Origin: Fidelibacterota bacterium
GTDB taxonomy: Bacteria; Verrucomicrobiota; Kiritimatiellia; JAIPIQ01
Reading direction: 5' to 3'
Assembly: GCA_021734645.1 (NCBI GenBank)
Contig: JAIPIQ010000006.1
Coordinates: 1-32,311, forward strand
Length of the DNA stretch: 32,311 bases
Program-made: the position numbers and the translations under genes
The notes under the pieces: model-generated
Databases searched by the model: none
The model's input: only the letters and a program-made list of their open reading frames with translations
What the model was told of the DNA's origin: nothing
In this document: positions 13,509-31,055 of the stretch, one piece after another
Position numbering within the stretch: the stretch's first letter is position 1
Layout: the number at the start of each line of letters is the position of its first letter

Positions 13509-15131
13509 ATGAAGCGGACCCTGTTCATCAACGAGGACGACAGTCATTTCACCTCCTACCATCCGCGCGCGGACATGACCCGCGAGGGGATCGAGCGACT
13601 GGCCGACTTCTACTGCGACAATACACAGGTTGCGGGCGTGCTATTCTGCGTGAACTACCAGAAGGCCCTGTACAAGAGCGCGGTCTGGGAGTACCTCTGC
13701 GACGGCTACGACCCGGGTGGCCCGGATGACCAGCTGTTCCTGCGGCACGTCGACCTCAGCACCGGTGGCCACGGGCGACACATGCTCGACAATATGCTCG
13801 CACTCGACCGCCAGGGATTGGACCGCTACCAGCTCTGGATCGACCGTTGCCGCCGCTACGGGGTCGAAGGCTGGCTGACCCTGCGCATGAACGACTGTCA
13901 CGGCCTGCAAGAGTACCGGCAGACTATCGAGCAGCAGACCGGCGCCTACCACGGTTGGGCGCTGATGTTCCCTTCGCAACAGTGGAAGGCCCATCCCGAA
14001 TGGCGGCGGGCGACATACCGCGAGGAACGCAGTCTGGAGGGCGCCTTCGACTTCGGGCTGGCCGAAGTGCGCAGGCATCATTTGAAACTGGTGGCCGAGG
14101 CGCTTGAAAAGTGGGACCTGGACGGCATTGAGCTGGACTGGTTGCGCTGGGGCATGCATTTCCGGCCCGGTTGCGAATCCGAATGCCGCGTTCTCCTGAC
14201 GGGGTTCATGGAGGCCGTTCGTGCGTTGGTCCGCGAGGCCGAACATCGGCTCGGGCATCCGGTCAAGCTGGGTGTGCGCATCCCCGCCGAGATCGAGGTG
14301 TGTGAGGCGCTGGGCTATGATCCCCTGGTTTGGGCGACAGAGAAACTGGCGGATCAGGTGACCCTGTCGTCCTTCGGTGGGATGTCGCTTGGCTGCGCTC
14401 CAATTGCCCTGTGGCGGCGCGTCCTGGGCGATGACGTGCGTTTGCTCGCCCACTGCTGCGGCGTCCAGGCACCCTACACGGCGCTGGGGCTCACCGGCCT
14501 CTTCGAACATGACGATCTGCTGCGCGGCGAAGCCGCCGCACTGCTGAACCGGGGCGTGGACGGGTTGTACTTTTTCAACAAGTGCTACGAGGAAAGCTCC
14601 CGCCCAGCCGAATTCAAACAACTCCTGCAAACCCTGGGCGCGGCGGAAACGTTGCGGGATCAACCACGCGCCCACCTGCCCGGCCACGGCGTCGCCGCGC
14701 CCGGCGTGCCGGCCCGCGGTCAACTGCCCGTTCCGTTGACAAATCCTTCCGTCGGCTATGACTATGCCCGTCTGGAATCAAGCATCACGCTGCGGCTCGA
14801 TACCGGTTTCGTTCCGGCGCTGGATGCCGGGGTCATGCTATACTTGGGCTTTTCGGAAACCATCGAGCTGGCCGAACACAGCGAACTCCGCATCAACGGG
14901 CGGGTGCTCGCGCGGGTCGCGGACACCAGTGGCGCGGTACTGCGCAATAACCAGATTGAGCGTTGCCTGGCCCCTCTGGCGCAGGCCATCCCGTTTCTGC
15001 TGGCTTACCGGGTTCCGCCCGAGTTCCTGCACCCCGCCGAGAATGTTGTCGAGCTGAGCGGCTTCACCGGCGCCGCCGAGTTGCGCTGGGCGGAGCTTGG
15101 TGTGCGGGCCATTGCCGATCGTGAACGATGA
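13509..15131 (+). CDS. Uncharacterised glycoside hydrolase-like (TIM-barrel, GHL-type) protein
   Basis: WDLDGIELDWLRWGMHFRPG (strand-end acidic motif), VKLGVRIPAEIEVCEALGYDPLVWATEKLADQVTLSS; C-terminal beta-sandwich-like region. Preceded by ggaga. Confidence 0.55.
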   Translation: MKRTLFINEDDSHFTSYHPRADMTREGIERLADFYCDNTQVAGVLFCVNYQKALYKSAVWEYLCDGYDPGGPDDQLFLRHVDLSTGGHGRHMLDNMLALDRQGLDRYQLWIDRCRRYGVEGWLTLRMNDCHGLQEYRQTIEQQTGAYHGWALMFPSQQWKAHPEWRRATYREERSLEGAFDFGLAEVRRHHLKLVAEALEKWDLDGIELDWLRWGMHFRPGCESECRVLLTGFMEAVRALVREAEHRLGHPVKLGVRIPAEIEVCEALGYDPLVWATEKLADQVTLSSFGGMSLGCAPIALWRRVLGDDVRLLAHCCGVQAPYTALGLTGLFEHDDLLRGEAAALLNRGVDGLYFFNKCYEESSRPAEFKQLLQTLGAAETLRDQPRAHLPGHGVAAPGVPARGQLPVPLTNPSVGYDYARLESSITLRLDTGFVPALDAGVMLYLGFSETIELAEHSELRINGRVLARVADTSGAVLRNNQIERCLAPLAQAIPFLLAYRVPPEFLHPAENVVELSGFTGAAELRWAELGVRAIADRER

Positions 15132-17515
15132 CGGTTGCGAAAACCCTTGACGGGGCGCTGAAAATGGGGCCTCGTGTGCGAATGCCCAAACAGGATTCCA
15201 CTTCGGCCGCGTCGGCGCGGACTTTGTCCTTTCGGCGGCCTGAATTGCTGGCGCCGGCGGGGAGTCCGGCGGCGGCTTGCGCGGCGCTGCATTACGGGGC
15301 CGATGCGATTTATCTGGGGTTGACCCGGTTTTCGGCGCGGGCGGAGGCGGTCAATTTTTCGCCGGAGGAGTTGGCGGCGGTATTGGGGTTGGCCCATACG
15401 CTGACGCCGCGTCGCCGGGTGTATGTGACGGTGAATACGTTGGTGCGCGAGTCGGAACTTGAGGCATTGTTGGCGGAGTTGGCGCTGCTCGAGGAGCTGG
15501 GGGTGGATGCAGTGCTGGTGCAGGATCTGGGGGTGGTGGGTTTGTTGCGGCGGCATTTTCCGCATTTGGCTTGGCACGCCAGCACGCAGATGGCCGTGCA
15601 TAATCTGGCGGGCGCCCGGGCGCTGGCGGAAATGGGGTGTGCGCGCGTGGTGCTGGCGCGCGAGCTGGACCTTGAGGAGATTGGTCGGATCACAGCCGGG
15701 GGCGGTCTTGAGACGGAAGTGTTTGTGCATGGGGCCCTGTGCTATTCCTATAGCGGGCTGTGCCTGTACTCGGCGCTGACCCAGGGCCGCAGCGGCAACC
15801 GGGGGCGGTGTGCGTATGGCTGCCGCGAGGCCTGCGTCGGCGCCCCGCGCCTGCCGTTTTCGATGCGCGATCTGGACCGTTCGGCGGCGCTCGAGGCCTT
15901 GACCCAAGCGGGCGTCGCCGCGTTCAAGCTCGAAGGGCGGATGAAGAGCCCGCTGTACGTGGCGGCCGTCACGGATTTTTACCGGCGGCTGATTGATGGC
16001 GAATTGGCGGGGGCGGACCTTTCCCGGCGGCGCGCGGATATTCAGACGCTGTTCAGTCGGCCGGTCACGAGCCTGGGGTTGCGGGGCGGAGACCAGGAAC
16101 CGGTGATTGACGCGGTGCATACGGGGCATCGGGGCGCGCTGGTGGGCCGTGTGTCCCGCACGGTCCTCGAGCGGAACGGTGAGCTGTGGCTCGAGTTCGA
16201 GTGCGAACGGGAGCTCGAGAAACACGACGGCTTGCAGGTGGACCTGCCCGAGCAGATCCAGCCCTATGGTTTCGCGGTGACCGGACTGAAGCCCCTCGAG
16301 GGCCGGTCGGCCGTGCGCGCGGGGCCGGGTTGGCTGGCCGTATTGCTGCCCGCCGATGCGCCGGTGTTGCCTGCGGGCGCCCGCGTGTATTGCGCTTCCT
16401 CCCAGGCCGTCAAACGCAGCTATCCCTTTCCCGCCCTGCGGCCCACCGTCCATCGCCAGCCCCGCCCCCTGACGCTGGCCGTCCGTCTGCAGCCCTCGGG
16501 CGCCGAACTCGAAGCGCAAAGCACGACCCCCGCCGGGGCAACGGTCTGCGCCTCCGTGCGCCTGGACGGTCCGCTGGCGCCGGCCCGTAATCCGGCGGGG
16601 ACTCAGGCCGCCCTCGAGAAAGCCTGGGCGCGCGCCGGCGAAGCCGGTTGGGAAGCCGCCGCCTTGACCATCGAGAATCCGGCCGGCGTCTTTCTGCCGC
16701 CCAGCCAGGCCAATGCCGCGCGGCGGATCCTGTGCGCCGAGCTTGGGACCGCGTGGGATGCACAGCAGGCCGCGCGGCTGGCCGAAATCACGCTGGACTT
16801 GGCGGCGTCTCCCGCGCCGCCGTCTCCGGGCGCTGCCGCCGGTTGGTTCGTCAAAGTGGGCGCCCTGACGGATCTCGCCCGAGCTGCCCAATGGGCGCGC
16901 GGCCCCCTGACCGAGTGTATCCTCGAAGTGCCGCCCCCTTGGCCGGATCCGGACGCACTGTGCCTCGCCTTGGCGGCGAGTCCCGCGCCCGTGCGTCTGG
17001 CCCTGCCGCCCATTCTGCGGGCGGGCGATGAATCAACGGCCCTCGAGTGGGTGCGGCGCGGCCTGGCGGCGGGGCTGACCCGCTGGGAAGCCGCCAATGG
17101 GGGCGCGCTGTGGATCTTGCGCCAGGCCGGCGCGACGGATATCACCGGCGACTGGCCGCTCTACACCTGCAATCATGCGGCCTGGGCGCAATGGCAGGCG
17201 CTGGGCCTGCGCGCCGTAGTGCTGGCCCCGGAAGACGAACCCGAAAACTGGGGTCGCCTCCTGAGTCAATACGGCGCCGCTTTGCAAGTGCCCGTGGAAA
17301 TGTATGCCCCGCTCTTTATCTCCGCCCACCAACCGGCTGACGGCCCCGGCCCGCGCCGCACCCGCGCCGGACTCGCCCTGCACACCCTCGAACGAGGCGG
17401 CGTATTCTATACCGTTGCCGATACCCCCTGGCGCTGCCCCGTCGCCACCGAAACCCTGCGCGCCGCAGGCGCGCAAGCCTGGCGCGTGGACCATACCCTG
17501 CCGCCCGACGCCTGA
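15128..17515 (+). CDS. Peptidase U32 family / RNA hydroxylase-like protein (RlhA/TrhP type)
   Basis: PELLAPAGSPAAACAALHYGADAIYLG, VHGALCYSYSGLCLYSALTQGRSGNRGRCAYGCREAC, FKLEGRMKSPLYVAAVTDFYRR are U32 hallmarks. ATGA overlap with the upstream gene. Confidence 0.9.
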   Translation: MTVAKTLDGALKMGPRVRMPKQDSTSAASARTLSFRRPELLAPAGSPAAACAALHYGADAIYLGLTRFSARAEAVNFSPEELAAVLGLAHTLTPRRRVYVTVNTLVRESELEALLAELALLEELGVDAVLVQDLGVVGLLRRHFPHLAWHASTQMAVHNLAGARALAEMGCARVVLARELDLEEIGRITAGGGLETEVFVHGALCYSYSGLCLYSALTQGRSGNRGRCAYGCREACVGAPRLPFSMRDLDRSAALEALTQAGVAAFKLEGRMKSPLYVAAVTDFYRRLIDGELAGADLSRRRADIQTLFSRPVTSLGLRGGDQEPVIDAVHTGHRGALVGRVSRTVLERNGELWLEFECERELEKHDGLQVDLPEQIQPYGFAVTGLKPLEGRSAVRAGPGWLAVLLPADAPVLPAGARVYCASSQAVKRSYPFPALRPTVHRQPRPLTLAVRLQPSGAELEAQSTTPAGATVCASVRLDGPLAPARNPAGTQAALEKAWARAGEAGWEAAALTIENPAGVFLPPSQANAARRILCAELGTAWDAQQAARLAEITLDLAASPAPPSPGAAAGWFVKVGALTDLARAAQWARGPLTECILEVPPPWPDPDALCLALAASPAPVRLALPPILRAGDESTALEWVRRGLAAGLTRWEAANGGALWILRQAGATDITGDWPLYTCNHAAWAQWQALGLRAVVLAPEDEPENWGRLLSQYGAALQVPVEMYAPLFISAHQPADGPGPRRTRAGLALHTLERGGVFYTVADTPWRCPVATETLRAAGAQAWRVDHTLPPDA

Positions 17516-17558
17516 CCCCAGCCTTCCAGTTACAGGCCCATATGGCGCGCGCCGCCGC

Positions 17559-18806
17559 TCAAAGCGTGACGGTCCGGCCTTCCAGGCGGGACTGCTCCGC
17601 GGCAAAGACCATGCGGTGCGATTCGAGGGATACCTCCGGTCCGGTTCGGAGCAGGCTGCGGTCGCCGGTGGCCAGCACCTGCATGAAGGCCGCCATCATC
17701 CGCTGATCGCCGCCGCCATGCCCCCCGGATAGATCCGTCCCCAGCTTGTTGACATCCTCTTCCGTCCAGGCATCGCGCTTGAAATCGAGGACGCGCAGGG
17801 TTTGTTCATCGCCCTCGAGATAGCCCTGGGCGCCCATGATTTTCACTCTGCGGCCATGCGGGGTAAACGCGCTCATGGTCAGGGAAGCCGACACCCCGCC
17901 CGCAAACTCGAAGTTCACCACCTGGTTATCCACCACATCATTGTCGCAGCGGTACACGCAGCGGCCATACGGTCCGGTCCGGAGCGCCGCTGTGAGCCGG
18001 TCTTCGTCGGGGTTCTCCACCACCATATTCAGCGGCCAGCCCAGGTTCTGCTGGCGCAGGCGGCCGAAATAGAAAGCCTTGGCCGAGTAGGGACAGGCCC
18101 CGTCGGCCAGCGGGCAGTCCAGGCAACGCGCGGTACTGCCGGCCGGAGCCTGGTCGGCGCGGAAATGGTGCAGGCTCCCGAAGCTGCTCACCCGGCGGCA
18201 CGGCCGGTCCGCCCACCAGCGCAGCAGGTCAATATCATGGCAACACTTGGCCAGGAGACTGAAAGACGACCGGGACTCATTGCCGAAATTGCCGCGCACG
18301 AAACTGTGGGCGAAGTGCCACCAGGCGATCCCTTCGAGGTGCTGGATGGACACCAGATCCCCCAGCGTCCCGGCCTCGAGGATCTCGCGAATGCGATTGT
18401 AGAAGGAAGCGTAGCGCAGCACATGGCAAACCATCAGCACGATGCCGGCCTCCTGGGCGGCGCGGGTGATGGCCGCGCATTCTTCCGGGGTGGGCGCCAT
18501 GGGCTTCTCGAGCAGGATGTGGTATCCTTGGGCGGCGGCCGCCAGGGCCGGTTCGTAATGCAAGCGGTCGGTCGTGGCGATAATCACCGCATCCGCCAGC
18601 CGGGGCCGCGCGAGCAACTCGCGCCAGTCAGCGAACTGATTCGCCGCCGGGATGCCGTGCCGCCGTGCCGCCTCTTCGCGGTAAAACGCCCGGGGATCGG
18701 CCACCGCCACGACCCGCCCCGCTTCCGGATGCCGCTCCAGATATCCGCCATAACAATGCAGGCCGCGACTGCCCGCGCCGATTATCGCCACTGTGGGGAC
18801 ACTCAT
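17559..18806 (-). CDS. Gfo/Idh/MocA family oxidoreductase
   Basis: MSVPTVAIIGAGSRGLHCYGGYLERHPEAGRVVAVADP (Rossmann fold) and HILLEKPMAPT; start moved to MSVP at 18806. Confidence 0.9.
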   Translation of the reverse strand: MSVPTVAIIGAGSRGLHCYGGYLERHPEAGRVVAVADPRAFYREEAARRHGIPAANQFADWRELLARPRLADAVIIATTDRLHYEPALAAAAQGYHILLEKPMAPTPEECAAITRAAQEAGIVLMVCHVLRYASFYNRIREILEAGTLGDLVSIQHLEGIAWWHFAHSFVRGNFGNESRSSFSLLAKCCHDIDLLRWWADRPCRRVSSFGSLHHFRADQAPAGSTARCLDCPLADGACPYSAKAFYFGRLRQQNLGWPLNMVVENPDEDRLTAALRTGPYGRCVYRCDNDVVDNQVVNFEFAGGVSASLTMSAFTPHGRRVKIMGAQGYLEGDEQTLRVLDFKRDAWTEEDVNKLGTDLSGGHGGGDQRMMAAFMQVLATGDRSLLRTGPEVSLESHRMVFAAEQSRLEGRTVTL

Positions 18807-18867
18807 GCCGTCCGTACTCCTCTGCCTTACTGGCATTTCAGGTTTCTCGTGACCATTTGATCGTGCC

Positions 18868-19206
18868 CTATAAGAGCTGGGCCAAAAACGTCTTGGCGGG
18901 AACCTTAACCGGGGTGGTCCGGGAAAAGCAATCCGCTTCCACGTAATCTGCCGCGACGGTTACCTGGAAGGCATGCCGGGCGCCGGTCTTCTCCTGGAAA
19001 TAGGCCAGGTGCGCGGACAGCGGCGCCGCGGACTGCTTGGCTGCGACCAGAAACCACGGCTGGCCATCGCGCACGACCAGAAAATCCACTTCCCGCTTCT
19101 GCTTGTCGCGGATGTAACGGAGCTCAAAATCGCCCAGCCCCAGATCGGTCCACCCCTCGACGGCTTTGAGCAGATGGCAGGCGATGAATGTTTCCGCTCG
19201 TTTTGA
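18868..19206 (-). pseudogene. Remnant C-terminus of an AAA+ ATPase with DUF4143 domain
   Basis: KRAETFIACHLLKAVEGWTDLGLGDFELRYIRDKQKREVDFLVVRDGQPWFLVAAKQS...GARHAFQVT matches the DUF4143 C-terminus; no ATPase domain upstream. Confidence 0.78.
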
Positions 19207-19243
19207 CTTTGAACCGGTTGCGGCGTCCGTTACCTTGTCTGGC

Positions 19244-21151
19244 ATGAACAGGAGACCTGGATGCGGCGGACTGGAGGCGGACAGGACCATTGTATTTCGC
19301 CTGTCGGACCACGGTTTGCGCCCGGGAACGGGACAGGATGCCGTCCCGGTTGTCAACCGGGTGTTGCGCCAGGCCGCGAACGTCGCGGGCGGGTCCGTAC
19401 GCCTCGAATTTGCGGCCGGCCGGTATGACTTCTGGCCGGACCGCGCGGGCGAACGCTACTGCGCGATATCCAACAACACCAATGGCTTCAAGGCGATCGC
19501 CTTTCCCTTGATCGGCCTGCGGGATTTCGAGATTGACGGAGGCGGGGCGGCCTTTGTCTTTCATGGCCTCGTCAATCCCTTCATCATCGAGCGCTGTCAG
19601 CATATCACGCTTCACGATTTTTCGATCAACTGGGAGCGTCCCTTCTATTCACAGGCCCTGATTCTGGCCGCCACCGACGAGTACGTGGATCTGGCCTTCG
19701 ACGAGGCGTTTCCGCACGAGGTGGTCAACGAGCGGCTCTATTTCATTGGGGAGGGGTGGCGGAGCAATTTTCTGTGCAGTTCGGTGGAATTCGACCCGCG
19801 TCTTGGGGGTCCCGCCTACATGGCCCGGGACTACTACGAAGCCTCGAACAACGTCCGGGCGGTGGCGCTTGATAAATGCCGGGTGCGGCTGTTCGGCGGC
19901 TACGACGGGCACAAGGTGCAAAAGAGCGCCGGTCGCCGTCCGGCCCACCACCTGCCGCGGCCGGGCAACATGCTGGTGATGAAGAATGACACGGCCCGGA
20001 CGGCGCCGGGGATTGCGATCAGCGCCAGCCGGCGGGTGACGGTGGCGCAGGTCGAACTGTATCATGCCTGCGGCATGGGGCTGGTGGCGGAGAAGACACC
20101 CGACCTGGTCGTTCGCCGTGTCAATGCCCGCCTGCCGCCCGGTTCCGGGCGGATGGTTTCCCTGAATGCGGATGCGCTGCATTTTGTAAATTGCGCCGGG
20201 CAGATCCGGGTCGAGGAATGTGTTTCGGAATATCAACTTGATGACGCCTTGAATATTCATGGCAATTACCTGTTCGTCACGGGTCGGCGGGATGAACGCA
20301 CCCTCGAGCTGGGCGTGAGGCATCATGAACAGGAGGGGTTCGACGGCTGCGGGCCGGGGGACGTGCTGGAATTTCATCATCAGCATTCACTGCGGTCCCT
20401 GGGCCAGGCGGGCGTCGAGGCGGTGGAGGTGATCAACGGGCGCTACCGGCTGGTGCGTTTCGATCGTCCGGTGGCGGCGCTCCTGGGGGCGACTCCGGCC
20501 GTGGCGGAGAACATAAGCTGGGCCGCGGATCTCACGATTACCGGCTGCCGCGCCGTCGCCAACCGTGGCCGGGGGTTCCTGATCAAATCGCGCGGGAAAA
20601 CCGTGATCCGCGGCAATACGGTCTCGACGGGCGGGGCGGCGATTGTGCTGGAAGGGAAGAGTTCCGGCTTCTGCGAATCCGGGCCGGTGCGCGATGTGCT
20701 GATCGAGGACAACGATTTCGTGGATTGCAAGCGCGGTCCCTGGGGACGGGCCGTGATTGATGTGCGACCGCTGATCGACCGGATTGATCCCGAGGCGCCC
20801 GGCTATCATCGCGGCGTCCGCATTTGTAACAACCGCATCCGCACATTCGATCCCGGGATTCTCGCGGCCTTCTGCGTGGAAGCATTGGAATTCCGGGACA
20901 ATCTCATCGAACGCACCGCCACCTTTCCGCCCAAGGCGGAGAGCATGCCATATACCCTGGCCCTCTACCGGGTGCGGAACGCCCGCATTACCGGAAACGA
21001 ATGCCGCGGCGCCGCCGGGGAAACCCCGTGGATCATGGATGAGGGGTCGGCCCGGACGGCGACCGTGACCGGCAATCGCCTGGGGCCGCGCGAGACCGAG
21101 CCGCGCCGCTTGAAGGCCGTGACGCTGATGGATGAGCAATTCGAGCCCTAG
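19244..21151 (+). CDS. GH110-like alpha-1,3-galactosidase (right-handed beta-helix)
   Basis: IDGGGAAFVFHGLVNPFIIERCQHITLHDFSINWERPFYSQA...EVVNERLYFIGEGW, VNARLPPGSGRMVSLNADALHFVNCAGQIRVEECVSEYQLDDALNIHGNY. Start at 19244 is chosen because earlier codons overlap the antisense DUF4143 remnant. Confidence 0.75.
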   Translation: MNRRPGCGGLEADRTIVFRLSDHGLRPGTGQDAVPVVNRVLRQAANVAGGSVRLEFAAGRYDFWPDRAGERYCAISNNTNGFKAIAFPLIGLRDFEIDGGGAAFVFHGLVNPFIIERCQHITLHDFSINWERPFYSQALILAATDEYVDLAFDEAFPHEVVNERLYFIGEGWRSNFLCSSVEFDPRLGGPAYMARDYYEASNNVRAVALDKCRVRLFGGYDGHKVQKSAGRRPAHHLPRPGNMLVMKNDTARTAPGIAISASRRVTVAQVELYHACGMGLVAEKTPDLVVRRVNARLPPGSGRMVSLNADALHFVNCAGQIRVEECVSEYQLDDALNIHGNYLFVTGRRDERTLELGVRHHEQEGFDGCGPGDVLEFHHQHSLRSLGQAGVEAVEVINGRYRLVRFDRPVAALLGATPAVAENISWAADLTITGCRAVANRGRGFLIKSRGKTVIRGNTVSTGGAAIVLEGKSSGFCESGPVRDVLIEDNDFVDCKRGPWGRAVIDVRPLIDRIDPEAPGYHRGVRICNNRIRTFDPGILAAFCVEALEFRDNLIERTATFPPKAESMPYTLALYRVRNARITGNECRGAAGETPWIMDEGSARTATVTGNRLGPRETEPRRLKAVTLMDEQFEP

Positions 21152-21159
21152 ATCCGGCC

Positions 21160-22095
21160 TTATTCGAGCGGGGTGGTTTCCCAGCCGGGGGGCAGGTAGG
21201 GGCGGTAGTCGGCGTAATCGCGCGGCAGGTTTTCGTGATCGCTCTCGACGGCCTGGACGGTGGTTCGGTTTTCGGCGTCGCGCAGAATCCAGCCATCCTT
21301 GATGCGCAAATAGGGTTGGCCCGTATCCGGGGCGAACACCGTTTGGAAGATGACGGTGCGTTGGCCCTGGCCGAAGTACGAGAATTCGGCCGTCAGGTTC
21401 TCTTCGGCCACCAGCAGGAAGCGGTCGAGCCGCTCGGGGCCCAGGGCCATTTCAAAGGCGTGGTATAAATCTTCGCGCAACGCCAGGCCAGCCTCCGGGA
21501 ACGGCGGATGCCGGATGATGCTCTTATCCGCGGCGGGCCGCTCGATCTCACGGCCGGCGCTTTCAATTTCATTGACGGCCCAGTGTACATAGGCCAGCGC
21601 ATCGTTCAGCAGGGCCTCCTCTTCGGGGGTCACGCGCAGAAAATCAGCCACCTCGGGATGCAAGGTGAAGGCAGGCGTTACCGGGCGCAGCGCCAGCCGC
21701 TCGAGGTGCTCCTCCGACAGGGGATACCGCCCCCGGAAATTGCGCAGAATCCAGTTGAGCAAGTCCGTCAGTTGCGTTTGCAGTTGGGCATTCATGCGGC
21801 GCAGCCGGCCGTTTTCCGCCGCGAGCGCGCCGCGGGGTTCCGCCGTAGCGGCGCGCGGGTCCGCCGTCGGCGCCGCCGGGACCGAATTGGCTGCCGCGGT
21901 GTCCGTCACGGAACGCGCGGGCGCTTGGGCGGCGGGCGGCGGGCGGGTGGTTACCGGCGCGTGGGCCGCGCCGGGCGCTGACGCGGCGGGCCGCGCCAGC
22001 CAGAGCAGGATGCCCCCCGCCAGCAGCCCCAATCCCAGGCCGCCGGCCAGCACCTGGATTCCCACTCGCCATGTTGTGCGCACCTGCATGACCAC
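21160..22095 (-). CDS. Hypothetical membrane-anchored protein with Ala/Pro-rich linker and coiled coil
   Basis: N-terminal TM (VGIQVLAGGLGLGLLAGGILLWLA), A/P-rich segment, LAAENGRLRRMNAQLQTQL coiled coil. Confidence 0.65.
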   Translation of the reverse strand: MVMQVRTTWRVGIQVLAGGLGLGLLAGGILLWLARPAASAPGAAHAPVTTRPPPAAQAPARSVTDTAAANSVPAAPTADPRAATAEPRGALAAENGRLRRMNAQLQTQLTDLLNWILRNFRGRYPLSEEHLERLALRPVTPAFTLHPEVADFLRVTPEEEALLNDALAYVHWAVNEIESAGREIERPAADKSIIRHPPFPEAGLALREDLYHAFEMALGPERLDRFLLVAEENLTAEFSYFGQGQRTVIFQTVFAPDTGQPYLRIKDGWILRDAENRTTVQAVESDHENLPRDYADYRPYLPPGWETTPLE

Positions 22096-22179
22096 TACCT
22101 TACGTACTCGCCGCCGGGTTGCAACCAGAAACCCGCCGCGGGTCGGCGCCGGGCGCAGGACACGAGAGTTACCATCGCA

Positions 22180-22314
22180 AATCCTAATCGCACTCGTCTC
22201 ATCGCCTATCCCGGCGGAGCCGCCTCCGGTCTTCGCTGCGGCATGCCGGCTGGGTCTGTTGGCCTACGCTCCGCTCCGCGGGGGATCGGAGATGGAGAGC
22301 GTGCGATTAGGATT
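22180..22314. repeat. MITE-like palindromic element: ~41-bp imperfect inverted arms with perfect 14-bp ends
   Basis: aatcctaatcgcac (22180-22193) versus gtgcgattaggatt (22301-22314), perfect; arms continue imperfectly to gcggagc (22214-22220) and gctccgc (22273-22279). Confidence 0.8.
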
Positions 22315-22401
22315 GGGGGGGGCGCATAGCGTTGTATTTCAAGATATGCTTCCTTTGGTATCTTTGGTTTCTGAGGTGTAAGAGTGCGTGTACCAGGGCC
22401 C

Positions 22402-22440
22402 TTGACATCATAAGCACCTTATCATATGTTGTGCTTATGA
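22402..22440 (+). promoter_or_regulatory. Sigma-70-like promoter TTGACA-17-TATGTT overlapped by a perfect 10-bp inverted repeat (putative autoregulatory operator)
   Basis: TTGACA 22402-22407, TATGTT 22425-22430; tcataagcac 22408-22417 and gtgcttatga 22431-22440; start codon ATG 22437 lies in the right arm. Confidence 0.75.
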
Positions 22441-22736
22441 GTGAGCCCATCAGCGAAGCCGTGAAAACGTATTTGAGGGAGATCGGCGCCAAGGGGGGCC
22501 GGAAGAGCCGTCGGCGTCTTGATCCGGCGCAGGCGCGCCGCATGGTGGCCGTGCGCGAGGCGCGGCGGGCGTTTCGGGACTACAAGACCCAATGTTTCTG
22601 GAGTTTTGACCCGGAATGGAACATACAGCATGAGCAGGTTCCATTGGTGATCCGAACACTGCGGGACGAGGGCAACGCTCAGGCATTTGCTCTTGCGAAA
22701 CGGCTCCACCAGCTCCACGCCGCCGGGGAGGCGTAA
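22437..22736 (+). CDS. Putative antitoxin-like small basic protein upstream of a nucleotidyltransferase
   Basis: MSEPISEAVKTYLREIGAKGGRKSRRRLDPAQARRMVAVREARRAFRDYKTQCFWSFDPEW...; the start at 22332 in the track would run through the promoter/operator. Confidence 0.7.
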   Translation: MSEPISEAVKTYLREIGAKGGRKSRRRLDPAQARRMVAVREARRAFRDYKTQCFWSFDPEWNIQHEQVPLVIRTLRDEGNAQAFALAKRLHQLHAAGEA

Positions 22737-22738
22737 CC

Positions 22739-23533
22739 ATGCCCATCGGCCCTTTTGAAGCGGAAATCCTGCGCACCGTGGCCGCCAACCGGAATCCGGA
22801 GAGCTTTATTGGAGGCGCAATGGTCTTGAATCAAGGGCCGGATTCCCCCCGGACCTCGGAGGATATTGATGTCTTCCATGATTCCGAAGACACCCTGCAG
22901 CAAAGCGTGCAAATGGATGAGCAGACTTTGCGGGCCCACGGATTCGACGTGGTGATTCTGCTGAACCGCCCCAGTTTTTACCGAGCGCGAGTGTCGCGCA
23001 GGCAGGACTCCACCAAGATCGAATGGGTGCACGATTCCGCCTTCCGTTTCTTCCCCACTGAGGCGGATGCCCTCATGGGCTACCGCCTCAACTTGTGGGA
23101 CGCGGCGACCAACAAAGTATTGGCCGGCGTGGGCCGAGGGGTCGTCAGGGACTATGTGGATTTGATTCATCTGCACCAGACCCGCCTGTCCCTGGGTGCT
23201 TTGATCTGGGCGGCCGCGGCCAAAGATCCCGGCCTGAGTCCGGATTTTATGCGGTCGGAAATGATGAGAACCCACCATTATGATCAGCAGACCTATGAAA
23301 GCTTGAAGTGGTCCCATCCCGTTGATCCCATTGCCCTGAAGAAAATCTGGCTGGCGGCCATGCGGGAAGCGTGGGACCTCTTTGATCTGCTGCTGGACCG
23401 GGACGCGCCCTATGGCTGTTTCTTCCTGGACGAACAGGGCGAACCGCAAACCCCCACCCGCGAAACCCTGACTGCGCTCCGCCCCCACTATGGTTCCCTG
23501 CGCGGCTGCTGGCCCCGCATTGTCGAAGAATAA
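22739..23533 (+). CDS. Nucleotidyltransferase-fold protein (AbiEii/DUF1814-like), putative toxin
   Basis: NTase motif GGAMVLNQGPDSPRTSEDIDVFHDS (GG...DxD) with a later acidic residue TKIEWVHD; 2-nt gap from the upstream gene. Confidence 0.75.
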   Translation: MPIGPFEAEILRTVAANRNPESFIGGAMVLNQGPDSPRTSEDIDVFHDSEDTLQQSVQMDEQTLRAHGFDVVILLNRPSFYRARVSRRQDSTKIEWVHDSAFRFFPTEADALMGYRLNLWDAATNKVLAGVGRGVVRDYVDLIHLHQTRLSLGALIWAAAAKDPGLSPDFMRSEMMRTHHYDQQTYESLKWSHPVDPIALKKIWLAAMREAWDLFDLLLDRDAPYGCFFLDEQGEPQTPTRETLTALRPHYGSLRGCWPRIVEE

Positions 23534-23563
23534 CCCATACTGTGGTGTTGATGTATTGCCCGC

Positions 23564-23582
23564 TTGACACGGTAACCGGTTA
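23564..23582 (+). promoter_or_regulatory. TTGACA -35-like box followed by perfect palindrome TAACCGGTTA (candidate LacI-type operator)
   Basis: cttgacacggTAACCGGTTAaa; TTGACA 23564-23569, palindrome 23573-23582. No convincing -10. Confidence 0.4.
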
Positions 23583-23727
23583 AAGCCGACAGAGGGGACA
23601 GAGAATCCGTGCCGCTTCGAATCAAGAAACCGGGCGGTCCGGCGCTGGGCAACCTTCTCCGGCCGTCTGGGTCCCTCTCCTCTCTCTCCTCCTCACGTCG
23701 CGCCCCCCCGATGAGGTCGGCTTTCGT

Positions 23728-23793
23728 GCGCAACGGGTTGCGCCACTAAGTGGGCGCAATGGCTTGACGATCAGCGCCGCGGGCTCCTATCGT
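23728..23793 (+). promoter_or_regulatory. Putative operator-promoter copy 1 (GCGCAACGGGTTGCGC ... TTGACG ... GCGCCGCGGG)
   Basis: Near-perfect palindrome 23728-23743, TTGACG 23764-23769, GCGCCGCGGG 23774-23783; same architecture at 31024. Confidence 0.65.
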
Positions 23794-23866
23794 CGCCTGG
23801 TTGTCGAAGCGGCGGGTCGGCGAGTGAACAGCCGCCGTCAATGGATACCAAGGAAGGATTGAGGAC

Positions 23867-25213
23867 ATGAGCAGTCAGGGGTTGAACGGAAAGAAAATCA
23901 GTATGATCGGGGCCGGTTCCGGTTTCACCATCGGGATTGTGAAGGAATTGGTGGGGCATGATTTTTTCGCGGGTTGGCAGTTCTGCATGATGGATCTCTC
24001 TGACGAGAACCTGGACCTGTTGGGCGCCAAGATCGCGCCGATTCTGGCGGGGGCCAAGCATGACCTGGACGTGCGGCGAACCACCTCCCTGGAGGAGGCG
24101 TTGTCGGGCGCCGACTACGTGGTTACCTCGTGTGAGCTGCGCCGGTATGTGAATTGGGCCAAGGACCTGAGCATTCCCGAACAGTTTGGCGTGTACCAGG
24201 TGCAGGGGGAGAACGGCGGGCCGGGCGGCATGATCCACGGCATGCGCAACATCGGGCTGTTCATGGGGATTCTGCCCGAGATGGAGCGCCTGTGCCCGGA
24301 GGCCTGGTTGTTGAACTTCACGAATCCCATGTCCATCCTGTGCACCTACTTCAAGAACCATTCCCCGGTGCGCGCGCTGGGGTTCTGCCATCAGGTGCAT
24401 GGTTCCTTCGGCGTGGTCGCCGAGATGCTCGATATGGAACCCGGCGAACTCGAAGTGGTTTCCGCCGGCGTCAACCATCTCAACTGGTTGTTTGATGTGC
24501 GGCGGCGGGGCACCGCCACCAGTTGCCTGCCGGAGTTTATCGAGCGGGTGCGCGCCTCGAAGTACTGGCGCGAACGCTTTCCCAATGTGCCGGAGCAGAA
24601 TTGGACACTCGAGGTGCTCAACACCTTCGGGATGTATCCCATCGGTTATGACCACCATATCTGCGAGTATATGTCCTTCTTCTGGGAGCCGCAGGAATGG
24701 GCGGCGCACGGGGTCCACTCGATGACCGAAACCTACACGCGGATGGCCCAGCAGACCTTCCGGGAGGTCAAGGAGCAGAAATTACTCGGCCAGCAATACA
24801 AAGCCCCGCCTTTCCCCAGGGATTCCGACCATCCGTACTACGCGGAGAAGCCCTGCCAGGTGATCGTCGCCCTCGAGACCAACACCCCAACGTACTTCGA
24901 CGCCATCAACATCCGCAACAACGGCGCGGTAACCAATCTGCCCGCGGACGTCATTCTCGACGTGCCGGGGTTGGCGATCGGCGGCGAAGTCCGCAGCGTC
25001 CATGTCGGCGAGCTGCCGCCCGGTCCGCTCGAAATCTGCCGCCGTCAGACCGCCCTGCATGAGATGATTGTCGCGGCCACCGTCGCCGGCGATGAAAGCC
25101 TGGTCGTGCAGGCCCTCTGTTTAACCCCCTTCGTGCGCAGCATTACCCAGGCCAAACAGATCTGGCAGGCCTACAAGCAGGAGTTCCTGGAATACCTGCC
25201 GACATTCCAGTAA
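23867..25213 (+). CDS. Glycoside hydrolase family 4 (NAD-dependent alpha-galactosidase/glucosidase type)
   Basis: KKISMIGAGSGFTIGIVKEL, NFTNPMSILCTY, GFCHQVHG, SAGVNHLNW; SD gagga upstream. Confidence 0.92.
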   Translation: MSSQGLNGKKISMIGAGSGFTIGIVKELVGHDFFAGWQFCMMDLSDENLDLLGAKIAPILAGAKHDLDVRRTTSLEEALSGADYVVTSCELRRYVNWAKDLSIPEQFGVYQVQGENGGPGGMIHGMRNIGLFMGILPEMERLCPEAWLLNFTNPMSILCTYFKNHSPVRALGFCHQVHGSFGVVAEMLDMEPGELEVVSAGVNHLNWLFDVRRRGTATSCLPEFIERVRASKYWRERFPNVPEQNWTLEVLNTFGMYPIGYDHHICEYMSFFWEPQEWAAHGVHSMTETYTRMAQQTFREVKEQKLLGQQYKAPPFPRDSDHPYYAEKPCQVIVALETNTPTYFDAINIRNNGAVTNLPADVILDVPGLAIGGEVRSVHVGELPPGPLEICRRQTALHEMIVAATVAGDESLVVQALCLTPFVRSITQAKQIWQAYKQEFLEYLPTFQ

Positions 25214-25238
25214 GTCCAGGCCTGGCAGGGAGCAATCA

Positions 25239-26438
25239 ATGGATAACCAGTTATTGTTGGAGCGGATGGCGTGCTGCACGGAGTGGCAAATCCGCAATCA
25301 GGTCACAGACCGGCAGGACGCCAACCGTGGGCGCTTCATCCGCAGCTACGACCAGGCCACCGGGCATCTCATCCTGACGGGCAACTGGCAAACCGGCACC
25401 GCGCTGATGGCGTTGTTGGCGGTGTACCGGCTGACCGGTGACCCACGCTGCCTGGACGCGGCGGAGTTGGCGGGCCGCTACATCATGTCGTTGCAGGTCA
25501 TGGACAGTGCGGATAAATATTACGGGGCCATTCGCGAATTGACCCCCCAGTCGCTTGAGTTCGCGCCGCGCGACGCCACCAGCGCCGCCTGGGCCCTGGT
25601 ATGGCTGTACACCTTCACCGGCGATGAGACGTACCTGCGGCGGGCGATCCTTTTTGCGGAATTCCATTTGAAATACTGCATGTGTGAAGGCTGGCCGCTG
25701 TACGCATGCTACATGACCACGGAACTCGATGATTTCTTGGCCCGCGGTTCCTTCCAATCCGGAACCGGACTGTTCTACTACGACTTGTTCATGGCTTCCA
25801 AGGATCCCCGCTATATCGCGTCCGGATTGCGTCCGATTGCCGACAACTACCGCAAGTACTTCATTCGGGAGGACGGCAGCCTGGTGCAGGAGCGGGAGAT
25901 TTTCACGTGGGCGGAGAAACCCGGCGCCGCGGAACAGGGGCATACGAGCCCCAATATGCATGCGTTCAACGATGATTTCGGCGCGCCGATGCTGTGGGCC
26001 GCCGCCGGCCTTTTCGGGGATGAGGAATACCGGCTCACGGCCCTGCGGTTTGTGCGCTGGTTGGCGGCGCATCTGCCGGGGAACTGGGAACACACGCCTT
26101 CCGCCGTCCCGATGGGGCTGATGTATTTCAACGACTTCGGCAACTATTATCAAGACCAAGAGCTGTTGACGGCTCGCGAGTGGGCCCTGGGCGCCTTGTT
26201 GAACATGCAATATCTCGATCGCGGCGATCCGAAGCTGGACGGGGCATTCAAGGGCCGGTACGAGGGGGCGGCCGGGGTTCCTGGCGGCGGCGCCCGTTGC
26301 CTCAACAATCGCACCACCTCCTATGCCCTGATTGCGCTGGCCAAGCTGGCCGGCGACCCGGAAAACATCTGGCTCGGCGCCAGAAACAGCCCGTTCGTGG
26401 ATCCGTTGACCCTTGGCCCACATTTGCTGAAGTATTAA
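25239..26438 (+). CDS. (alpha/alpha)6-barrel protein, putative carbohydrate-active enzyme
   Basis: Helical repeats with GNWQTGTALMALLAVYRLTGD, DATSAAWALVWLYTFTGDETYLRRAI, TTSYALIALAKLAGDPENIW; family not assigned. Confidence 0.6.
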   Translation: MDNQLLLERMACCTEWQIRNQVTDRQDANRGRFIRSYDQATGHLILTGNWQTGTALMALLAVYRLTGDPRCLDAAELAGRYIMSLQVMDSADKYYGAIRELTPQSLEFAPRDATSAAWALVWLYTFTGDETYLRRAILFAEFHLKYCMCEGWPLYACYMTTELDDFLARGSFQSGTGLFYYDLFMASKDPRYIASGLRPIADNYRKYFIREDGSLVQEREIFTWAEKPGAAEQGHTSPNMHAFNDDFGAPMLWAAAGLFGDEEYRLTALRFVRWLAAHLPGNWEHTPSAVPMGLMYFNDFGNYYQDQELLTAREWALGALLNMQYLDRGDPKLDGAFKGRYEGAAGVPGGGARCLNNRTTSYALIALAKLAGDPENIWLGARNSPFVDPLTLGPHLLKY

Positions 26439-26477
26439 CGCCGGGAAGCAGGATTCGCGCCGACGGGGAGGTGAACA

Positions 26478-27713
26478 GTGGCCAATGCCCGAAAGGTTCC
26501 CATGGATTTCGAAGAACTCCGGTTGTTCTACCGGCGGACCTTACTGGATGATATCATTCCGTTCTGGATGCGCCATGCCATAGACCCGGCCGGGGGGTTG
26601 AACACCTGCCTGCGCGATGACGGCACACTCGTTTCCCGCGATAAGTGGCTCTGGAGCCAGTGGCGCGCCGTGTGGGTGTTCAGCACGCTCTACAATCGCG
26701 TGGAAAAGCGCCCGGAGTGGCTTGAACTTGCCACCCACATCTACGATTTCACCCGCCGCCACGGGTGGATCGCCAGCGTCGGCGGCTGGGCGTTGCGCCT
26801 TGACCACCAGGGCCATGTCCTTGATGGCTGCCAGAGCATTTACGTGGATGCCTTTGCCATCTATGGCCTGGTCGAATACTGCCGCGCCACCAACAACGCC
26901 CCCGAGGCCGTCGCGCTCCTCAGGCGGACGGCCGAAAATACCTTGCGCCGCCTCCGCGACACGCCCCGCGACCAACTGCCCCATTTTCCCTATCCCATCC
27001 CGCCCGGCGCCAAGACCCATGGCGTGCCCATGATGTTCAGCCTGATCCTCTGGGAATTGGGACAATATCTGGACGATGATCTGTACCGCACGGCGGCGCA
27101 AGGCTACTCCCGTGAAATCTTCGAATGTTTCCACCGTCCCGAATGTGACTTCGTTGTCGAGCGCGTTACCCTGGACAACCGCGAAATGCCCGCGCCGCTG
27201 GGCACGGCCGTCGTCCCCGGCCATGTGATCGAGGACATGTGGTTCCAAATCCACATTTTGCGCGATCTGGGAGACGCCGCCCGGATCAACGAGGCCTGCC
27301 GGCTCATGCGGCGCCACACCGCGGCGGGTTGGGACGCGGAATATGGCGGGCTGTTTCTCGCCATCGACGCCGCTGGCCGCGCAGAGGTCGGTTGGCCGTT
27401 CGCCGAGGCCAAGCTCTGGTGGCCGCATACCGAGGCGCTGTACGCGTTATTGCTCGCCTTTGAATACACCGGCGCGCAATGGTGCCTTGATTGGCACAAG
27501 AAAATTCAGGACTATTCCTTCGCGCGCTACCCGGTGGCCGGGCATGGCGAATGGACCCAGAAACTCGACCGGCGCGGCGAGCCGTTCAGCGCCACCGTGG
27601 CATTGCCCGTCAAAGATCCGTTTCACCTGTCCCGCGCCCTGATCCTCTGCCTCGAAGTCCTGGAACGGCTGAGCCCCGGCACAGCCGGCAACCGGGGCCA
27701 TCGGGCAAAGTAG
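26478..27713 (+). CDS. AGE family epimerase/isomerase (N-acylglucosamine 2-epimerase type)
   Basis: WMRHAIDPAGGLNTCLRDDGT, KWLWSQWRAVWVFSTLYN, GHVIEDMWFQ, WPFAEAKLWWPHTEALYALLLA, HGEWTQKLDRRGEPF; GTG start with ggggagg upstream. Confidence 0.88.
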   Translation: MANARKVPMDFEELRLFYRRTLLDDIIPFWMRHAIDPAGGLNTCLRDDGTLVSRDKWLWSQWRAVWVFSTLYNRVEKRPEWLELATHIYDFTRRHGWIASVGGWALRLDHQGHVLDGCQSIYVDAFAIYGLVEYCRATNNAPEAVALLRRTAENTLRRLRDTPRDQLPHFPYPIPPGAKTHGVPMMFSLILWELGQYLDDDLYRTAAQGYSREIFECFHRPECDFVVERVTLDNREMPAPLGTAVVPGHVIEDMWFQIHILRDLGDAARINEACRLMRRHTAAGWDAEYGGLFLAIDAAGRAEVGWPFAEAKLWWPHTEALYALLLAFEYTGAQWCLDWHKKIQDYSFARYPVAGHGEWTQKLDRRGEPFSATVALPVKDPFHLSRALILCLEVLERLSPGTAGNRGHRAK

Positions 27714-28137: not shown

Positions 28138-29358
28138 TCACGTCCAGAGCGGATTATCAATGATGCGGCTCAGGTCGGGCGGCAGCAGGTCGGCGGGATT
28201 GACAAAGCCCCCCTCGGCCGCGGCCTGGATGCCCGCATAGCCGAGCAGCTCGGCGGCGAACGCCTGGTCAACGGTGCTGAAGGGCTCCTCGGCGCCGCGC
28301 ATGACCAGGTAAAAATGTTTGGCCATGAATCCGTCGCCGTTGTAGTGGTTGCGGCCAAGATAGTCGAAATCGTACTTTTGTTGGTCGTGAACCATGCCAT
28401 AGCGTGGGCAAACCAAAATGTGACCGCCAAACTGCTCGCCCAGGTTAATTTCCATGGCGCCCTCGGTGCCATGAATTTCGTAGACGCGGTGATGATAGGC
28501 ACGCGGCGAGAAGAACCACTGGTGGTAGGTGCCGAAAACGCCATTGGCGAATTCAAACAGGCACAAATCGTTATCGGGCGTGTCCGCCTCGCGGGCATAA
28601 ACGCACAGGTCATTCTTCACCCGGGAAAGCTCCTCCATCGCGAAATGGCCGTTCCGGTAGAGGATATTCTGCATGCTCTCGGGACACGTCGTCCGTTCGG
28701 CGCAGGTGCGGCAGCGCAAGTCGTTCGGCTTGTCCCCGCCAAAGGCCTGCAATTTCTGCGTCGCCGCCACCCGGACGGGCACATCCTCCAGCAGCCAAAG
28801 CAGGATGTCGAAATCATGGGTGGCCTTTTCGAGCAGCCAAGTCCCGGAAAGCTCCTTGCGCCGCCGCCAATTGTGGTAACCACCATTGCCGTAATGGCAA
28901 TTCTGGACGAAGCGGGTCGAACAGATGCTGCCGATGTCTCCCCGGTCCAGCATTTTCTTCGCCGCGCGCAAAATGGGCGCGTAACGCATGCAGTGGCCGA
29001 CAAGAATCTTGCCCGGATAGCCCTGGGCGAATCGGACCACTTCGCAGATTTTATCGAAGGTGCTATCGAGCGGCTTCTCAATCAAGATGGGTATGGATAA
29101 TCCGGCGAAGCCCTGCAAATGCTCAAGATGGCAATGGTTGGGGGAACCAATCACCGCGCCATCCAGTTGCTCCTGGGCCACCATCTCCGCGACCGTACGG
29201 TAGCGCCGGGGGCGCACGCCCAACTCACAACCCTTCTCATACTTGTCGTCGAACGGCTCGACGCAGGCCGTCAGCTCGACCAGACCCCCCGATTGCTGAT
29301 GAATCTCGCCAGCCACCCCCCGGGGCCGTCCACTCCAGCCGACTACCCCCAGCTTCAT
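28138..29358 (-). CDS. Gfo/Idh/MocA family oxidoreductase
   Basis: MKLGVVGWSGRPRGVAGEIHQQSGGLVELTACVEP, ILIEKPLDSTFDK, GHCMRYAPILRAAKKML; start at 29358 preceded by aggaggg on the minus strand. Confidence 0.9.
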   Translation of the reverse strand: MKLGVVGWSGRPRGVAGEIHQQSGGLVELTACVEPFDDKYEKGCELGVRPRRYRTVAEMVAQEQLDGAVIGSPNHCHLEHLQGFAGLSIPILIEKPLDSTFDKICEVVRFAQGYPGKILVGHCMRYAPILRAAKKMLDRGDIGSICSTRFVQNCHYGNGGYHNWRRRKELSGTWLLEKATHDFDILLWLLEDVPVRVAATQKLQAFGGDKPNDLRCRTCAERTTCPESMQNILYRNGHFAMEELSRVKNDLCVYAREADTPDNDLCLFEFANGVFGTYHQWFFSPRAYHHRVYEIHGTEGAMEINLGEQFGGHILVCPRYGMVHDQQKYDFDYLGRNHYNGDGFMAKHFYLVMRGAEEPFSTVDQAFAAELLGYAGIQAAAEGGFVNPADLLPPDLSRIIDNPLWT

Positions 29359-29501
29359 AACGCCGCCCTCCTGACCGGAAATCCCGCTGGGCCCAAAGGC
29401 CGCCCGTTGATCCGCCTGCCCTGTTTCCCTATTCATGCCGGGCAGTATGTTGGTGGCGCACGTGGGCGTCAAGCGCCCAGAAAGAAGCGCCGAGGGAATC
29501 A

Positions 29502-29617: not shown

Positions 29618-29649
29618 TTTATTACACCTGCTCCTACACGCCTGAAGCT

Positions 29650-29768
29650 CTTGCAAAACCTCCAGCGGACGACACGGAGGTCGTCCCTCCATTTGAAACG
29701 CGCGGGTCTTGAACTGATTTCTGGAGGGTCGGGCTCCGTCCCGACCGATGATCAGGAGGTTTTGCAAG
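29650..29768. repeat. REP-like bipartite palindromic element with two hairpins and 14-bp terminal inverted repeats
   Basis: cttgcaaaacctcc (29650-29663)/ggaggttttgcaag (29755-29768); hairpins ggacgac-acggag-gtcgtcc (29667-29686) and ggtcggg-ctccgt-cccgacc (29727-29746). Confidence 0.85.
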
Positions 29769-29879
29769 CGCCTCACCTATCTTTCCATTCATGTTCACAC
29801 GCAGGTCCAGCCCGCTCGGGCGGCATCCCCCCGGCAGCGGCGAGCTTTACAACCGCCCCTCTACTTGGTACAGAAGCTC

Positions 29880-31055
29880 ATGCAATCGGTTGGAAGCCCC
29901 TCGACGGAATCGCGGTCGGCGCATGCCGGCCGGCCGCGCATGGAAGATATTGCCGCCCGGATCGGTGTGTCCAAATCAACGGTCTCCAGGGCCTTGCGGA
30001 ACGACGCCCGCATCTCGGTTGCCATGCGCAGGCGCATCGCCCGGGCCGCGCGCGACCTGGGCTACCGCAAGAACCCGCTGGTCGCCGCCCTCATGGCCGA
30101 TATTCGCGCCGTGTATCCCGCCAAGAAGCACGCCACGACCATCGCTTTTTTTATCCCGGCCGACAATGCCGCCGTGTGGTTCAAGGTTTCCGCTTATGTT
30201 GACTTTCTCGACGGCGCGCGGCGGCGGTGTGACGAACTGGGCTTCCAACTGGACACGATTGCGCTGGATGCCTGCAAAGGGAAAATCAGCCAGGTCACGC
30301 GCGTGCTGCGCACCCGCGGTATCCGGGGCGTGGTGGTCGGCCCGCACCGGTTGCAAGCCCCTCCCGTCGGTCCGGATTGGGATGTTTTCTGGCAGTCATT
30401 CTCATTTGCCCTGCTCGGGGTTTCCTTTGCGCACGTGCCATTGCACCGGGCTTCGAGTCACCATTACTTGTGCATGCTGAACGGGTTGCAGGCGCTGACC
30501 CGCCTGGGGTACCAGCGGGTGGCGCTGGCGAACCATGCGGATATGGATGATCGGTACATGCACCAGTTTGTCGGCGCGGCCGGGGGGCACGCGACCGAAG
30601 TGCCGCCGGCGCGCCGCGTGCCGCCGCTGTTGGCCAAGACGCTGAATCGCGAGACCTGCCTGCGGTGGTTTGAAAAATACAGGCCCGATGCCATTCTCAG
30701 CGGTGAGCCGCTCATCACCGGCTGGCTCGAATCCGCCGGCATCAAGATCCCCCGCGATGTGGGATACGCCGTGACGAACAACCAGGGCCATGCCCATATC
30801 GCCGGGATTGACCAGCGCCTGCCGATCGTCGGGGCCAACGCCACGGACTTGGTCGCCACCCAGCTCTATCACAACGAGACCGGCCTGCCTCCCCATCAGT
30901 TACTCGTGCTTTCAGAAGGCATGTGGGTGGACGGCCCCACGGCGCCGGGCAAAGCCCCTCACCCGCCGACGCGCGCGACCCCGAACGCCAGCCGCCGTCC
31001 CCGGGCCGGTGGCACCCGATCTCGCGCAACGGGTTGCACAAAAAAGACAGGGTAA
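29880..31055 (+). CDS. LacI-family transcriptional regulator
   Basis: HTH RPRMEDIAARIGVSKSTVSRALRNDARIS and LacI-type sensor domain. Start moved from 29748 to ATG 29880 because the upstream codons overlap the palindromic element. Confidence 0.9.
   Translation: MQSVGSPSTESRSAHAGRPRMEDIAARIGVSKSTVSRALRNDARISVAMRRRIARAARDLGYRKNPLVAALMADIRAVYPAKKHATTIAFFIPADNAAVWFKVSAYVDFLDGARRRCDELGFQLDTIALDACKGKISQVTRVLRTRGIRGVVVGPHRLQAPPVGPDWDVFWQSFSFALLGVSFAHVPLHRASSHHYLCMLNGLQALTRLGYQRVALANHADMDDRYMHQFVGAAGGHATEVPPARRVPPLLAKTLNRETCLRWFEKYRPDAILSGEPLITGWLESAGIKIPRDVGYAVTNNQGHAHIAGIDQRLPIVGANATDLVATQLYHNETGLPPHQLLVLSEGMWVDGPTAPGKAPHPPTRATPNASRRPRAGGTRSRATGCTKKTG

Follow-up and report, generated by a model that had tools for sequence, protein, structure and literature searches.

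A palindromic unit between divergent genes

The window, by which we mean the whole 32,311-nt stretch of DNA that was analysed, carries a long palindrome in the intergenic space between two divergent genes, one of MocA type on the minus strand and one of LacI type on the plus strand (Table 1). A longer reading frame for the LacI-family regulator, from 29748, would start within the palindrome itself. Elsewhere in the window, positions 13509-27713 hold a carbohydrate-related gene cluster with GH4, GH127-like, GlcNAc 2-epimerase, GLAA-B-type beta-helix and U32 peptidase members, and a weak match to AbiEii lies at 22739-23533.

The palindrome had been described in a first-pass annotation of the sequence as an interval from 29650 to 29768, with 14-bp inverted-repeat arms (29650-29663 and 29755-29768) around two hairpins, each with a 7-bp stem and a 6-nt loop. 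All of these parts were confirmed: hairpin 1 pairs 29667-29673 with 29680-29686 around the loop ACGGAG (29674-29679), and hairpin 2 pairs 29727-29733 with 29740-29746 around CTCCGT (29734-29739). When copies were aligned together with their flanks, the ends of the unit were fixed slightly further out, giving a length of 131 bp (29644-29774), over which the arms reach ~19-20 bp with one to two mismatches. The unit folds much better than its shuffled counterparts (z = -4.75 as RNA and -5.56 as DNA), none of 200 shuffles folding as well, and in the minimum free energy folds of both RNA and DNA the two hairpins are merged into one long hairpin.

Table 1. Features of the palindromic unit and its surroundings (positions in the window)
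Feature	Position	Strand	Evidence or remark
Whole composite MITE, 131 bp	29644..29774	no strand	15 near-full copies; copy alignment; TIR matches at 29644-29662 and 29756-29774
Left TIR, GAAGCTCTTGCAAAACCTCC (family consensus GAGGCTCTTGCAAAACCYC)	29644..29663	+	TIR common to the autonomous DDE insertion sequences L294, L318, L352 and L353
Right TIR, GGAGGTTTTGCAAGCGCCTC	29755..29774	-	Copy alignment and TIR match
Left flank, GCCT	29640..29643	no strand	With ACCT, a decayed candidate 4-bp target duplication (3/4 match)
Right flank, ACCT, partner of 29640-29643	29775..29778	no strand	Sequence
REP unit 1, GGACGAC-ACGGAG-GTCGTCC-CTCC, tag CTCC	29667..29690	+	Stem also beside the RAYT gene on G000:C7
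Spacer separating the inverted REP units (the pair being a REPIN/BIME)	29691..29722	no strand	Sequence and copy alignment
REP unit 2, inverted, GGTCGGG-ACGGAG-CCCGACC-CTCC	29723..29746	-	Stem also at G000:C7:5025-5048, beside the RAYT
Gfo/Idh/MocA oxidoreductase gene, flanking	28138..29359	-	Pfam; start placed by hand at MKLGVVGW, 29359
LacI-family regulator gene, flanking	29880..31055	+	Pfam; start placed by hand at 29880

Multiple copies with terminal inverted repeats and target duplications

The source genome (G000) is a metagenome-assembled genome of 2.6 Mb in 224 contigs, 69% complete; all genomes compared with it are metagenome assemblies too, and their nearest kinship to it is membership of the same class. 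Within the source genome, blastn recovered 15 near-full copies of the unit at 80-100% identity (E values from 8e-67 to 2e-38), with further matches to the hairpins only or to the ends only, and the 14-mer arm itself has 21 exact matches, compared with none for a reversed control. Aligned with their flanks, the copies have GAGGCNCTTGCAAAACCTC ends in common and diverge immediately outside them, the ends of the unit being terminal inverted repeats (TIRs) of ~19 bp, GAGGCTCTTGCAAAACCTC.

Short direct repeats of 4 bp, such as ACGA, TCAT, ACAT, TTCC, TGCA and AGCT, often lie just outside the copies. Of 101 distinct short elements that have these ends, 44 are flanked by an exact 4-bp target duplication, compared with 1.1% when pairings are shuffled; the count is maximal at shift 0 and is halved once the boundary is slid by a single base. 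In the copy of the window itself, the duplication is imperfect (Table 1). Short, non-coding, multicopy and bounded by TIRs that it shares with a transposase-coding element (below), and with a target duplication characteristic of its family, the unit bears out the earlier description of it as MITE-like. We also considered an IS200/IS605 element moved by a Y1 transposase alone, which would have neither TIRs nor a duplication; the TIRs and 4-bp duplications present here do not fit this.

Nesting was observed at several loci. One MITE copy (L013; G000:C103:23939-24299) adjoins a remnant that resembles an end of the parent insertion sequence, a case of nested insertions; when the remnant served as query for the parent, it recovered fragments only. 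In at least three lineages (L015; L196-L198; L243 and L324) an extra hairpin of 24-34 nt sits within the loop of one of the composite's REP units, so that palindromes are nested three deep.

Autonomous insertion sequences with the same ends

The same TIRs bound autonomous insertion sequences of 1.5-1.7 kb that carry a DDE transposase gene. Two of these, L294 (1652 bp) and L318 (1582 bp, with CTTC on both flanks), are bounded by the window's TIR and encode a DDE_Tnp_1+DUF772 transposase of ~372 aa. Because this product scores below the NCBIfam cut-offs (84 of 270 bits for IS1182, 69 of 110 bits for IS5_3), we term it IS1182/IS5-like only. TIRs are also perfect at L352 and L353, and in the more divergent homologues the TIRs have changed accordingly. 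Of those autonomous copies that have both flanks, only L318 shows an exact 4-bp duplication. Homologues of the transposase were found in 27 of the 288 genomes searched from the class.

A gene for the parent transposase was found neither in the 69%-complete source assembly nor in G006, an assembly from another family of the class that is 93% complete and has ~190 TIR sites. Two source contigs (C107 and C220) end in the same 139 bp, which start at the TIR; over 134-141 bp they agree at 75-79% with the right ends of L352, L294 and L353. Since these contig ends match the parent's right end, an autonomous element is probably present in the source genome but missing from its assembly. The eight parents examined contain no REP motif and have only their ends in common with the MITE; the core of the MITE is thus not derived from its parent.

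A RAYT-linked REP pair with covarying stems

The core of the unit consists of two inverted REP hairpins with a common loop, ACGGAG, and the tag CTCC/GGAG (REP-A). A Y1 transposase of the RAYT type, the partner that the first-pass annotation had proposed to look for, is encoded on contig C7 of the source genome (G000:C7:4435-5343; L019:912-1820, minus strand) and has HUH (DHVHLF) and Tyr (YVRxNP) motifs. It is flanked by doublets of the window's REP, one of which (C7:5025-5085) contains exactly both window stems. Against the NCBIfam model REP_Tyr_transpos it reaches 5.9e-18 and 65 bits, below the cut-off of 80 bits; it gave no Pfam hit and came to light only when a close relative was used to search. 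The gene has an in-frame REP pair within its coding sequence (C7:4646-4710), which gives it ~30 residues more than its relatives. A search with the RAYT L162 found its relatives in 123 of the 288 genomes of the class. At many of the fetched loci, REPs with the ACGGAG loop lie directly beside the gene. Two other RAYTs of the source genome, L067 and L068, came from a Pfam search with Y1_Tnp, and each is surrounded by a different hairpin family; L067 has hairpin-like repeats inside its reading frame.

The stems of the two window hairpins differ while pairing is kept, which had been noted as paired stem differences. Compensation of this kind is borne out across RAYT loci: when every ACGGAG with CTCC 7 nt downstream was counted, whether or not the flanking bases could pair, all seven stem pairs were Watson-Crick in 54 of 63 units with loop and tag, compared with 1 of 37 without CTCC. 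Across the 44 distinct units from all loci examined, the covariation score was 0.612; shuffled partners gave 0.183 and slid partners no more than 0.121. The stem differences are thus genuine covariation within a family of REPs linked to RAYTs. A single-copy sequence absent from relatives and free of covariation, the outcome against which the first-pass annotation had set its reading, is not what was found at any point: the unit has 15 copies, recurs in other genomes and covaries.

The canonical tag GT[AG]G is absent, GGAG standing in its place in all REP-A units, and we therefore call the core a RAYT-linked REP pair on the strength of its linkage to the RAYT and its architecture; to that extent the earlier designation as REP/BIME units, now two inverted and tagged REP hairpins, is retained. 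The GGAG within the invariant loop is complementary to the invariant tag CTCC next to the stem, and the stems vary freely, though loop and tag were what the units had been searched by. Recognition between tag and loop in REP-A units is possible. By a hand tally, 26 of 39 exact REP-A units in the source genome lie within MITE copies. The REP units listed for G006 are overwhelmingly those of the MITE pair (stems GGTCGAC and GGGCAGG), and the units beside the RAYT on its contig C33 differ from them.

These data bear on the proposal that the locus produces a transcribed, structured RNA (kissing loops, a riboswitch-like element or a bidirectional terminator), the fold of which would be under selection between divergent genes. 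A strong fold, compensatory stem changes and an intergenic place between a MocA-type and a LacI-type gene are all what such an RNA would lead one to expect, but copies of the unit lie at unrelated sites with target duplications, the covariation is fully explained by single RAYT-linked REP hairpins at many RAYT loci, and an Rfam scan of the window returned no family match. The complementarity of the two loops, from which loop-loop kissing had been suggested, is present in the sequence but is no independent feature. The hairpins lie in inverted copies of one 29-nt unit (29663-29691 and 29722-29750, 76% complementary), so that they are one REP in two orientations, and inversion forces their loops to be complementary; kissing finds no support, given this by-product of inverted duplication and minimum free energy folds that join the hairpins. 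We consider a selected RNA at this locus extremely unlikely. A secondary influence of the unit on transcription of its neighbours is possible.

Different cores between the same ends, and the same core between different ends

The TIRs of the window are not confined to one kind of core. In the source genome they also bound units of ~101 bp around a different hairpin pair (GTGGCATGGGC...GCCCGTGCCAC), a second MITE type (L096-L103, L108, L110 and L115) in which the pair is GTGG-tagged (REP-B); REP-B was found beside none of the RAYT loci examined. Both the 131-bp and the 101-bp types occur in G006, which contains ~190 end sequences at up to two mismatches, and its elements align with those of the source genome through the spacer and the REP flanks. 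When GTDB genomes were scanned for the end sequence, no fewer than 115 stretches were recovered, most of them from metagenome-assembled genomes labelled Lentisphaerae, Verrucomicrobia or PVC group. The cores of 102 distinct short elements comprised 47 with the window's REP, 34 with the REP-B doublet and 6 with other CCCTCC/GGAGGG pairs, proportions that are only indicative because the tally mixes loci found by element with loci found by ends alone. Among the remaining elements are L336, with pairs of the CTAC/GTAG type, and L240, L325 and L340, which are short palindromes without REPs. In records labelled Chromatiales and Gammaproteobacteria (L268 and L289), this TIR encloses CGTCATTCCGGC-type repeats, a hint that the insertion sequence has passed from one phylum to another.

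The converse arrangement was found in G053, where the window's REP pair (GGACGAC and GGTCGGG) is enclosed by an unrelated TIR, CAGCAATTC...GAATTGCTG; there are at least 10 such copies (among L135, L136, L138 and L382-L389). Many of these copies are at contig ends; L135, with both flanks present, is bordered by an 8-bp repeat, TCCCTCGT, and no flanking repeat was seen at L136.

If the entire 131-bp unit were an extended REPIN or BIME moved by the RAYT alone, its arms would either simply belong to the palindrome or be a target that the RAYT prefers. The core is indeed a true RAYT-linked REP pair, and REP dimers in palindromes have been read as insertions into 'target palindromes' (PMC3733652). 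However, the same arms end autonomous DDE insertion sequences and have 4-bp duplications outside them, and they frame other cores, namely the REP pair of the 101-bp units, the CTAC/GTAG pair of L336 and the REP-less L240, L325 and L340, such that we judge movement by the RAYT alone to be very unlikely. The earlier suggestion of a RAYT-type substrate therefore holds for the hairpins, which are linked to a RAYT in the same genome, but not for the whole unit, which bears the marks of DDE transposition in its duplications and in TIRs shared with autonomous copies.

A probable composite mobile element

Very probably, the unit is a composite non-autonomous mobile element with DDE TIRs outside and a REPIN as cargo inside, in which two familiar kinds of bacterial mobile DNA are stacked, and not a new RNA. 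In the mechanism that we propose from these comparisons, the outer arms are the ends of an IS1182/IS5-like insertion sequence of the DDE type, the transposase of which would recognise GAGGCTCTTGCAAAACC at both ends in trans and would move the 131-bp unit by cut-and-paste, leaving a 4-bp target duplication. The REPIN in the core would serve as substrate for the RAYT (HUH/Y1) transposase that this genome encodes and may have got into the MITE through insertion by a RAYT or through trapping, possibly on several occasions, after which the composite would have spread as a DDE element that now carries most copies of the REP.

How the REPIN came to lie between these arms can be envisaged in two ways. 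The TIRs may have trapped a pre-existing REPIN, through two insertion-sequence ends or an internal deletion, or a RAYT may have inserted the REPIN into the centre of a MITE. Trapping has a substantial chance of being right, if somewhat short of even. The lengths of 131 and 101 bp are fixed across families, which fits few founding events followed by DDE spread, and the alignment of G006 and source elements along the spacer and the REP flanks points to common descent. Against it, several kinds of REPIN lie centrally between the same arms, beside REP-less short palindromes, and repeated insertion is the easier route to such a variety of REPs within one TIR. No MITE corresponding to the composite without its REPIN turned up in the source genome, and the order of events is hence one that we infer: the RAYT would originally have placed the REPIN in the MITE.

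As a tentative generalization, which we hold to be possible though on balance doubtful, RAYTs may insert REPINs into the middle of MITEs, and DDE-type MITEs may then spread them far beyond the RAYT's own reach. Such a two-engine strategy, if true, would explain the hitherto unexplained 'REP dimers in palindromes' seen in other phyla and, in some genomes, the bulk of the REP copies.

Relation to known systems

The composite element physically joins two mobile systems that have been studied separately, RAYT/REPIN on the one hand and DDE insertion sequence/MITE on the other. With REPINs and their RAYTs (Bertels and Rainey 2011, PMC3116915) it shares a spacer between two inverted REP hairpins, stem changes that compensate each other, and a RAYT gene in the genome that is flanked by the same hairpins; it differs in that most REP pairs here lie inside DDE-type TIRs with duplications. 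As the MITE carries two thirds of the source genome's exact REP-A units, REP abundance need not measure RAYT activity. The tags reported as canonical for RAYTs are GTAG and GTGG (PMC6006769), whereas the REP family described here has a GGAG/CTCC tag and a fixed ACGGAG loop complementary to it, which makes it useful for testing how RAYTs read hairpins.

Bacterial MITEs such as RUP, NEMIS, ERIC and Nezha (listed in PMC3733652) are likewise short, TIR-bounded, non-coding and multicopy, and they are mobilised in trans, as we infer for the element described here. Their likeness ends at the interior, which here is a second mobile unit, a REPIN, instead of a parent remnant, and which varies among members with the same TIR. 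Full insertion sequences that insert into REPs (Tobes and Pareja 2006, PMC1525189) offer another association of insertion sequence and REP, but here the REP pair is inside the miniature element.

The closest parallel is the occurrence of REP dimers within long palindromes in A. variabilis and H. neapolitanus, which Di Nocera et al. (2013, PMC3733652) called target palindromes and for which palindromes without REPs were not found. There, as here, a REP dimer regularly lies within an outer palindrome; the arms here are identified as insertion-sequence TIRs with an autonomous parent, with duplications and with REP-less versions. What is added, relative to an open-access literature in which an earlier report is possible, is that the enclosing palindrome consists of transposon ends with a parent and duplications, and that several kinds of REP occur within one TIR. 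Palindromes that enclose REP dimers thereby gain a likely identity, as transposon ends.
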